Source of the DNA: Variovorax boronicumulans NBRC 103145
GTDB lineage: Bacteria; Pseudomonadota; Gammaproteobacteria; Burkholderiales; Burkholderiaceae_C
Direction of reading: 5' to 3'
Assembly (NCBI RefSeq): GCF_001591345.1
Contig: NZ_BCUS01000025.1
Coordinates: 1 to 64,000, forward strand
Length of the DNA: 64,000 nt
The position numbers and the translations under genes are program-made. Numbering within the stretch: the stretch's first letter is position 1; each line of letters begins with the position of its first letter. The notes beneath the pieces were generated by a model that was not told the origin of the DNA, did not search any database, and saw nothing but the letters and a program-made list of their open reading frames with translations. Below are positions 57,359 through 58,965 of the stretch, one piece after another.

Positions 57359-57922
57359 CTACCAGCCGACGATCATCACGACGCCCAGCACCAGGAAGAT
57401 CGCCGCCGAGATGCCGTGCACCAGCTTGATCGGCACGCGCCGCACGATCTTGTCGCCCAGCCACACGACCGGCGCATTGGCCAGCATCATGCCCAGCGTG
57501 GTGCCGACGACGACCCAAGCGTAGTCCTGCGTGAAGCGGGCGGCCAGCATGACGGTGGCGATCTGGGTCTTGTCGCCCATCTCGGCCAGGAAGAAGGCGA
57601 TCACGGTGGTGCCGAAGACGCCGAACTTCGAGACGCCGGGGGCGTCGTCTTCATCGAGCTTGTCGGGAATCAGCATCCAGACGGCCATGGCGATGAACGA
57701 GCCGCCCAGGATCCAGCGCAGCACCTCGGGGCCGAGCCAGCGCGTGATGTAGTTGCCGACCGCGCCGGCCAGCGCGTGGTTGATGACCGTGGCGACAAAG
57801 ATGCCGAACACGATCGGCCAGGGTTTCCTGAAGCGCGCGGCCAGCAGAAGGGCCAGGAGTTGGGTCTTGTCGCCCATTTCGGCGAGCGCGACCACGCCCG
57901 TTGCAACGAGAAAAGCTTCCAT
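57359..57922 (-). CDS. TMEM165/GDT1 (UPF0016) family manganese exporter
   Basis: 187-residue six-helix cation transporter with the family signature twice: EMGDKTQLLALLLAARF (residues about 15-31) and EMGDKTQIATVMLAARF. The acidic pair and threonines form the metal site. Bacterial members (for example MneA of Vibrio) export manganese. This fits a yybP-ykoY manganese riboswitch just upstream. Start at 57922 chosen by the first helix. Confidence 0.92.
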   Translation of the reverse strand: MEAFLVATGVVALAEMGDKTQLLALLLAARFRKPWPIVFGIFVATVINHALAGAVGNYITRWLGPEVLRWILGGSFIAMAVWMLIPDKLDEDDAPGVSKFGVFGTTVIAFFLAEMGDKTQIATVMLAARFTQDYAWVVVGTTLGMMLANAPVVWLGDKIVRRVPIKLVHGISAAIFLVLGVVMIVGW

Positions 57923-57957
57923 GATGGATGTGGGGTTCCTTGGGCCGAAGGACGCAA

Positions 57958-58004
57958 TTGACCGCACAACACCTTCGGCCATATTCCCGAAGTTGTGCGG
58001 TCAA
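57958..58004 (-). promoter_or_regulatory. Expression-platform hairpin of the manganese riboswitch
   Basis: Outer stem TTGACCGCACAAC/GTTGTGCGGTCAA (13 bp, perfect) with an inner CTTCGG/CCGAAG stem, between the aptamer and the exporter gene. The 5' part overlaps the aptamer's terminal GAGACCTTTGA, so aptamer and hairpin can exclude each other. No clear T-run, so control may be translational or Rho-based. Confidence 0.6.
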
Positions 58005-58110
58005 AGGTCTCGCCAGGTGTGTTCACTGCACGCGCCATGTCCTCGTGGGGCAAGGACAAGTCTGTTGACGCGGGCCCTTCTCGTATGCGGAAGGCGGCTA
58101 CTCCCCAATG
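58003..58110 (-). ncRNA. yybP-ykoY manganese riboswitch
   Basis: On the minus strand the RNA opens with the family hallmark GGGGAGTAGCCGCC and ends with GAGACCTTTGA, with AGACTTGTCC/GAGGACATGGCG helices in between, the conserved loops that hold Mn2+. It precedes a GDT1-family exporter, its known kind of target. A TACAAT -10-like box (58119-58124) lies just upstream. Not checked against Rfam. Confidence 0.87.
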
Positions 58111-58137
58111 ACCGGCAAATTGTAGCCGCATCGTCAA

Positions 58138-58377
58138 TTCCCCCGGCTCAAACAGGTAGGCGTGCGCTAACTTCTACTAGTTTCGAAAGGTGCTACCTCA
58201 AGACGCAAATTCCTGCTTGCTTTTTTGATATTTCACCCATAATGCACGAGCATCCCTCTTGATTTTGGGTGGGAGCAATTCGGTGATCGGTCAGTTTCGC
58301 GCGGCTCGGCGGCTCTCGTTTGAGTGATGCTTTCGGGACTCCATCGCTTTTCTTGATGTGTTTATAGGAGTCCCTTG
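58138..58377 (+). promoter_or_regulatory. Promoter and structured 5'UTR of the RNA-binding protein gene
   Basis: A promoter TTGCTT (58217-58222), 17-base spacer, TAATGC (58240-58245) gives an about 125-base leader. In it an 8-bp stem GGGACTCC (58335-58342) / GGAGTCCC (58367-58374) with a 24-base loop covers the Shine-Dalgarno AGGAG (58366-58370) just before the ATG. Likely a conformational switch (cold, or protein binding). The stretch 58138-58216 shows nothing else I recognise. Confidence 0.65.
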
Positions 58378-58899
58378 ATGGGCAACAAACTCTACGTCGG
58401 CAACCTGCCTTACTCGGTGCGCGACGGTGATCTCGAGCAGGCCTTCGGCCAGTTCGGCGCAGTGACCAGCGCCAAGGTCATGATGGAGCGCGACACGGGT
58501 CGCTCGAAGGGCTTCGGCTTCGTCGAGATGGGCAGTGACGCGGAAGCACAGGCCGCCATCAACGGCATGAACGGCCAACCCCTGGGCGGCCGCAGCGTGG
58601 TCGTCAACGAAGCACGTCCCATGGAAGCACGCCCCCCCCGCAGCGGTGGCGGCGGCTACGGCGGCGGCGGTGGTGGTTATGGCGGCGGTGGTGGCGGTGG
58701 CTACGGCGGCGGCGGTGGTGGCGGCTACGGTGGTGGCGGCGGTGGCCGTTCCGGCGGTGGCGGCGGCTACGGCGGCGGTGGTGGTCGTTCGGGTGGCGGC
58801 GGTGGCGATGGCGGTTTCCGCAGCCCCTACGGCGCAGGTCCCCGTGGCGGCGGCGGTGGTCGTGGCGGCTACGGCGGCGGCGGCAACGGTGGGTACTGA
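58378..58899 (+). CDS. RRM domain, glycine-rich RNA-binding protein
   Basis: 173 residues. One RRM (residues 1-80) with RNP2 LYVGNL and RNP1 KGFGFVEM, then a long Gly/Tyr/Arg tail (GGGGYGGGG units, RGGYGGGGNGGY at the end) like cyanobacterial and plant cold-induced Rbp proteins. The tail aids RNA binding or phase separation. ATG 58378 with AGGAG 8 bases upstream; start buried by a leader hairpin. Terminated at 58941-58965. Confidence 0.94.
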   Translation: MGNKLYVGNLPYSVRDGDLEQAFGQFGAVTSAKVMMERDTGRSKGFGFVEMGSDAEAQAAINGMNGQPLGGRSVVVNEARPMEARPPRSGGGGYGGGGGGYGGGGGGGYGGGGGGGYGGGGGGRSGGGGGYGGGGGRSGGGGGDGGFRSPYGAGPRGGGGGRGGYGGGGNGGY

Positions 58900-58940: not shown

Positions 58941-58965
58941 AAAAGGCTCCCTCGGGAGCCTTTTT
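58941..58965 (+). terminator. Intrinsic terminator downstream of the RNA-binding protein gene
   Basis: AAAAGGCTCCC-TC-GGGAGCC then TTTTT. A-run and T-run on both sides allow bidirectional use with the convergent SDR gene. Confidence 0.9.

Follow-up and report, generated by a model that had tools for sequence, protein, structure and literature searches.

The window analysed here comprises the first 64,000 nucleotides of contig NZ_BCUS01000025.1 of Variovorax boronicumulans NBRC 103145, and the locus of interest in it centers on a gene for a glycine-rich RNA-binding protein of 173 residues, which consists of a single RRM domain (PF00076, E 6e-22) and a glycine-rich tail. The best protein matches among named records are from Variovorax. 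Relatives of this RRM in the PDB include HuC, HuD, PUF60, and Sex-lethal, which are binders of U-rich RNA, whereas the best PDB match, a poly(A)-binding protein, is not a U-rich binder. The protein is near-universal in the family, with a match in 366 of the 399 family genomes sampled. The genome itself has a second RRM gene (G000:C18:50887-50986; L002 and L124), 80% identical over 92 residues and preceded by the same leader.

Downstream of the gene, a terminator-like hairpin can be read directly from the sequence (Table 1); a simple scan reports the same hairpin on the minus strand only. Divergent from the RRM gene, a manganese (yybP-ykoY) riboswitch (57932-58118, minus strand, 69.3 bits) precedes a gene for a GDT1-family divalent-cation transporter (57359-57922), which is a known pairing. 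The yybP-ykoY riboswitch is also found at the relative locus L038, and a SAM_alpha riboswitch lies near another RRM gene (L234, minus strand, 1163-1238).

Table 1. Features of the RRM gene and its leader in the window
Feature	Coordinates	Strand	Basis
Promoter-like site: TTGCTT (58217-58222), CATAAT (-10-like, 58238-58243), 15-nt spacer	58217..58243	+	hexamer kept in relatives; transcription start predicted
5′ untranslated leader, about 128 nt	58250..58377	+	start predicted from -10 hexamer
Upstream box GGTGATCGGTCAGTTTCGC, GGTG core near-invariant	58282..58300	+	genome search and alignment of 209 leaders
5′ arm GGGACTCC (anti-SD)	58335..58342	+	direct reading, local fold, alignment of relatives
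Hairpin loop: conserved ATCGC (58343-58347), then U-rich with TGTGTTT (58357-58363)	58343..58366	+	ATCGC in 99/105 parsed leaders
3′ arm GGAGTCCC, carries the SD	58367..58374	+	AGGAGTCCC in 97/105 parsed leaders
RRM/glycine-rich protein gene	58378..58899	+	ATG at 58378; PF00076 match
Terminator-like hairpin GGCTCCCTCGGGAGCC, then TTTTT	58941..58965	+	read directly from sequence

In terms of layout, the leader comprises, in order, the CATAAT hexamer, a GGUG box, a hairpin with an AUCGC loop and a U-rich stretch, and the Shine-Dalgarno sequence (SD). A preliminary description of this DNA had placed the promoter at TTGCTT-17-TAATGC. Both of these hexamers are present with the 17-nt spacer (TTGCTT at 58217, TAATGC at 58240), but the hexamer retained among relatives is CATAAT, with the 15-nt spacer. 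Of 107 distinct leaders, 95 have a sequence of the form [CT]A[TA]AAT at positions -185 to -95, and none has one in an equal-length gene-proximal stretch, a weak control in that this stretch is itself conserved; the CATAAT/TTGCTT site is absent from the list of a simple promoter scan. The predicted start agrees with the leader length of about 125 nt proposed earlier. Like the CATAAT hexamer, the upstream box GGTGATCGGTCAGTTTCGC is kept among relatives. Allowing up to three mismatches, it occurs in the genome in two exact copies, each before an RRM gene, and in one 3-mismatch copy elsewhere. The columns of its GGTG core have only one or two inferred substitutions each across 209 leaders of the same type, referred to below as group I. 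The loops of this group are rich in U (fraction 0.54, versus 0.33 elsewhere in the leader and 0.16 in the window; 192 of 209 leaders parsed), and TGTGTTT is present in 104 of the 192.

The 8-bp perfect stem formed by GGGACTCC and GGAGTCCC was found where the preliminary description had put it; it encloses a 24-nt loop, and the ATG follows at 58378. That description had the stem contain AGGAG; the 3′ arm does enclose GGAG, and the first A (58366) lies just outside. A 68-nt local fold retains the stem (-20.3 kcal/mol, z -2.35; 5 of 200 shuffles do as well), and the whole 155-nt leader is of no unusual stability (z -0.19; 76 of 200 shuffles do as well). When the final 14 nt were held constant and only the 46 nt ahead of them were dinucleotide-shuffled, an 8-bp perfect stem over GGAG arose in 26 of 20,000 shuffles, and the observed stem is thus rarer than expected by chance. 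The concealment of the SD extends to the relatives: in 60 of the 209 group I leaders, the predicted unpaired fraction of the SD at 37 °C is 0.19, versus 0.33 with the upstream sequence shuffled, and SD accessibility falls below the mean of the leader's own shuffles in 88% of this sample. The GG of the SD pairs with the 5′ arm at a probability above 0.5 in 162 of 191 parsed group I leaders (of 209). These results bear out the earlier proposal that the SD is hidden; in group I it is paired in a conserved local stem, and a hairpin that locks the SD of the RRM gene is the likely reading. At one locus (L218, genome G173), the hairpin is kept as GGACTCC...GGAGTCCC, with 38 nt between the end of its 3′ arm and the start codon of the RRM gene; the hairpin may not hide the SD there.

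Conservation of the leader was assessed at 111 loci that were picked by their RRM protein and not by their leader, namely the 31 best-scoring loci from whole genomes (the window gene, its paralogue, and 29 loci from that genus) together with 80 named ones, with some genomes occurring twice. By eye, the SD-side box or a near match is present in all 111 leaders, and at L062 most of the 5′ arm consensus is lost. Among 105 parsed leaders (of 107 distinct), AGGAGTCCC is found in 97, the loop ATCGC in 99, and the exact GGGACTCC in 60, in support of a conserved leader. The 3′ arm is nearly constant, and changes in the 5′ arm are mostly one-sided. A change of A4 to G, which keeps a G-U pair, is seen in 48 of the 209 group I leaders; the changes T6 to C (34 of 209), G2 to A (17 of 209), and G3 to A (14 of 209) break a pair.

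Covariation, proposed in the preliminary description as a check on the stem, gives a mixed picture: none is seen within group I, but the helix has another sequence in the second group of leaders described below. In 47 distinct group I rows, no pair shows a compensatory double change, and 94.1% of cells are paired versus 93.9% with shuffled columns (48 of 500 as high). RNAalifold did not recover the stem from the group I alignment. A tree-aware test of the R-scape kind, for which we wrote the script (G-test with APC, compared with 30 simulations on the tree), gave no significant pair in group I (209 leaders) or in group II (116 leaders).

The link between this leader and RRM genes was followed with a covariance model, R1. 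At E ≤ 10, R1 gives two matches in its own genome, which end at the start codons of the two RRM genes and were both part of the model; no match was found on cold-shock or other genes among the 150 of 1424 first-look candidates that were scored. Across the family, 114 of 200 genomes drawn, in 81 of 141 genera, contain an R1 match (20 candidates scored per genome). An RRM gene lies at the match in 89 of 89 fetched loci, which are part of the matches. A rule places the RRM start codon where the match ends on its 3′ side in 87 of the 89, and reading the coordinates does so in L144 and L146, at contig ends. Within these scans the element is confined to RRM genes, and it lies in their 5′ untranslated region as defined by the predicted transcription start. 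At the level of the order, 11 of 399 genomes match (10 candidates scored per genome), 10 of them from the same family. The eleventh (G544, E 6e-4) belongs to another family, and the match was taken as chance after the fetched stretch proved to be without an RRM match. Of four RRM matches in other families of the order (L357-L360), three are readable, L360 poorly, and by eye no such leader is present. The divergent plasmid RRM genes of Aquabacterium and Variovorax likewise have no leader by eye; a Polaromonas plasmid RRM copy carries it. At several loci (e.g. L125, L126, L130, L143, and L147), a pair of RRM genes is spaced by about 600 nt, and each gene has its own leader; the second copy in L125, L126, and L130 has a shorter 5′ arm (GGGCTCC or AGGCTCC).

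Genomes with poor or no R1 matches were searched for the RRM protein: 20 without a match, six with weak ones, and G130. The RRM gene is present in 22 of these 27, including 16 of the 20 without an R1 match, and in 15 of those 16 the best RRM gene is preceded by another leader with a candidate SD hairpin of different sequence, a version from other genera of the family that we call group II (the exception is L219). An example reads ...CTGTGTCTGGA..GCGCCTTCGCTTGAATGGTTCACGATGGGTTGAAGCTCCACATGG...AAAGGGCTTCCCC-ATG. With 80 further family stretches fetched at RRM protein matches, the set was sorted by regular expressions, a rough procedure, into 193 group I, 110 group II, and 31 unsorted leaders (334 distinct); 22 of the 31 were added to the groups by hand, except in the own-versus-permuted pairing test below. 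Among the leaders counted as group II are at least L111, which looks like group I, and some unrelated ones (L243, L337, L345, L347, and L350).

The SD side of group II can pair with an AGCTCC arm as GAAGCUC/GGGCUUC or GAAGCUCC/GGAGCUUC. When the latter is hand-aligned with the group I stem on the loop-side pairs, three neighbouring pairs differ on both sides (A-U to G-C, G-C to A-U, and G-C to A-U). Swaps of both arms were also seen by eye in single leaders: GGGAT/ATCCC in L183, GGCTC/GAGCC in L155, CGGAC/GTCCG in L216 and L217, and GGGGC/GCUCC in L241. In a subset of group II, the 3′ side AAGGCGC is matched by an upstream GCGCCTT; leaders with AAGGCGC have GCGCC in 27 of 27 cases and GCACC alone in none, and GCACC is found in 24 of the 86 other parsed leaders. 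Some group II leaders (e.g. L304, L308, L329, and L335) have extra inverted repeats by eye, some with GGTACC, between the 5′ arm and the SD.

The match between the two sides was evaluated by pairing each leader's 5′ segment with its own or a permuted SD segment. Own segments pair better across the full set of 334 leaders (-13.47 versus -11.85 kcal/mol), with one leader per distinct 3′ segment (-12.51 versus -11.03 kcal/mol, n = 95, p 0.001), and with one per 16-mer in group I (-14.96 versus -14.60 kcal/mol, n = 88) and group II (-11.40 versus -10.79 kcal/mol, n = 66), at p values of 0.001 to 0.004 that are uncorrected for kinship. Concealment of the SD is less clear in group II than in group I: its SD is no more hidden than with the upstream sequence shuffled (0.42 versus 0.44; 60 of 116 leaders), and the GG of the SD pairs with the near arm at a probability above 0.5 in only 39 of 113 parsed leaders (of 116), in a group where the position of the SD is less sure. 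The group II loops are also less rich in U (0.375 versus 0.279 in the rest of the leader; 110 of 116 parsed). For group II, a sequence-only model, R2, searched against 20 genomes, has its best match at the RRM start in 19 of the 19 genomes that carry group II; 14 of the 19 contributed sequence to the model, and G171, G215, G122, G137, and G112 are independent of it. A weaker second match (E 3.5e-4) lies at G103:C473:5409-5494, away from the RRM gene of that genome, and all remaining matches, including two in the genome of the window, have E values of at least 0.097.

The preliminary description had raised two possible roles for the hairpin, a temperature switch and an autoregulatory site. Cold-shock mRNA leaders are of a similar length to the roughly 128 nt predicted here, a likeness that speaks for a thermometer or cold-shock leader whose hairpin would open or refold with temperature, with RRM protein made independently of its own level. 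A melting thermometer was rejected on the outcome of equilibrium folding, in which the SD stays closed: at each of ten temperatures between 4 and 60 °C, the window leader retains its 8-bp stem with GGAG paired, and SD accessibility stays at 0.198-0.200, the value expected with the first A of AGGAG as the sole unpaired base. The mean accessibility in 60 group I leaders is similarly flat (0.206, 0.193, and 0.199 at 10, 37, and 50 °C), no refolding of the leader is predicted between 4 and 60 °C, and R1 marks no other gene of its own genome at E ≤ 10. By analogy with cspA, the leader may rearrange during transcription. The assignment of the protein to a "cold-induced type" rests on analogy with the cyanobacterial Rbp proteins, and no title among the literature matches listed concerns a cold response of a betaproteobacterial RRM gene. 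Temperature control of either kind is considered unlikely. As modelled, the closed stem needs a helper to open or acts as a standing brake.

The exclusive linkage to RRM genes, the U-rich loop, and the kinship of the RRM to binders of U-rich RNA together favour autogenous control. We consider it an even call that the leader is a cis-acting translational lock dedicated to the RRM (RNP-1 type) genes of the family, most simply an autogenous one; autogenous control through binding of the RRM protein, which is a prediction from sequence, we likewise place halfway between doubtful and likely, and it is consistent with the confinement of the leader to RRM genes and with its U-rich loop. In such a scheme, the default state would be translational repression, and the single-stranded GGUG box, the AUCGC loop, and the U-rich loop next to the SD would serve as recognition sites for a factor that switches the hairpin from closed to open or back. 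The most economical candidate for this factor would be the RRM protein itself, which when abundant would bind the U-rich loop and the box of its own mRNA and keep the hairpin shut; its titration by other RNA, under stress or in the cold, would let the SD open.

Confinement to RRM genes is also compatible with a different regulator acting in trans, for example a small RNA with its chaperone, an RNase, a cold-shock-domain protein, or a standby ribosome on GGUGAUC. GGTG, CCATCGC, and TCCC beyond the SD are near-invariant, which is more than the stem alone needs, and by eye GGUGAUC is complementary to what we take to be the 3′ end of 16S rRNA. Only the GGTG core of that complementarity is constant across group I, with the rest varying; we regard such a factor as improbable. 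Alternatively, the boxes could be DNA elements or encode a leader peptide, with the hairpin a by-product. An ATG-started upstream open reading frame does span the core in 67 of 192 parsed group I leaders (of 209) and in 50 of 83 parsed group II leaders (of 116), and one frame is favoured in group II (34, 15, and 7). In group I, these reading frames occur in all three frames (28, 24, and 15) and most leaders are without one, and the upstream-frame reading was rejected on this lack of frame conservation. The boxes are situated past the -10 hexamer and hence within the predicted transcript, and the hairpin arms match within leaders. This last explanation appears very unlikely.

A more specific version of autogenous control can be outlined from complementarity between the box and the loop, which is GGUG with CAUC in group I and CUGUG with CACAG or CACA(U)GG in group II. 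In group II, matching changes of box and loop are seen in L226 and L235, and permutation gives p values of 0.022 (n = 94), 0.078 (n = 61, one per loop), and 0.048 (n = 43, deviating loops) with kinship ignored (103 of 116 leaders parsed); in group I, the box-loop columns of the 209 leaders show no covariation. The putative box-loop pseudoknot is suggestive only. That the leaders form a new family of autogenous riboregulators, in which the RRM protein would recognize this pseudoknot and both helices would have been re-invented between clades with the architecture kept, is a tentative idea that we hold to be rather doubtful. If true, it would make the RRM protein an autogenous translational regulator in Proteobacteria.

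The arrangement is reminiscent of several known systems. ROSE and fourU are RNA thermometers that sequester the SD, and here too the SD lies in a hairpin stem near the start codon; in contrast to these elements, the stem is predicted to stay closed from 4 to 60 °C, the SD pairs with CUCC and not UUUU, and there is no Rfam match. Ribosomal-protein leaders exert autogenous translational repression by RNA-binding proteins, and the present leader resembles them, from sequence alone, in that a putative control element is restricted to the gene of an RNA-binding protein. The Chlorobi-RRM motif (RF01697; Weinberg et al. 2010, PMC2864571), marked "y" both as RNA and as cis-regulatory in a table of that paper, is linked to RRM genes by its name, as is the present leader by its position; it comes from a different phylum, and the RF01697 model gives no match here. 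Cyanobacterial rbp leaders have conserved 5′ UTR boxes for the cold response according to an excerpt of PMC9333190, and the likeness, drawn by description and not by box sequence, lies in an RRM and glycine-rich protein with conserved 5′ UTR boxes; unlike in that excerpt, an explicit SD-hiding hairpin is found here. No Rfam family matches the leader at the gathering threshold, or at E ≤ 5 on 58120-58450, and a search of 20 loci including relatives at the gathering threshold gave only riboswitches elsewhere. The literature covered, with most subscription journals outside its scope, holds no report of the leader among the matches listed. The RRM-specific translational leader is real and conserved; it is new as a sequence family and of a kind already known.

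RRM proteins are abundant RNA-binding proteins of eukaryotes, and RbpB of Bacteroides has an RRM as well; to our knowledge, bacterial RRM proteins are much less studied in Betaproteobacteria. Elsewhere in bacteria, work has been done on RRM proteins of cyanobacteria (PMC9333190) and on RbpB of Bacteroides (PMC11697453). The leader, with no match in Rfam 15, could become a new family there. As it is found only on RRM genes, it offers a ready candidate binding site for the RRM protein, and a single RNA and a single protein would suffice to test directly how specific a proteobacterial RRM protein is and whether it controls itself.
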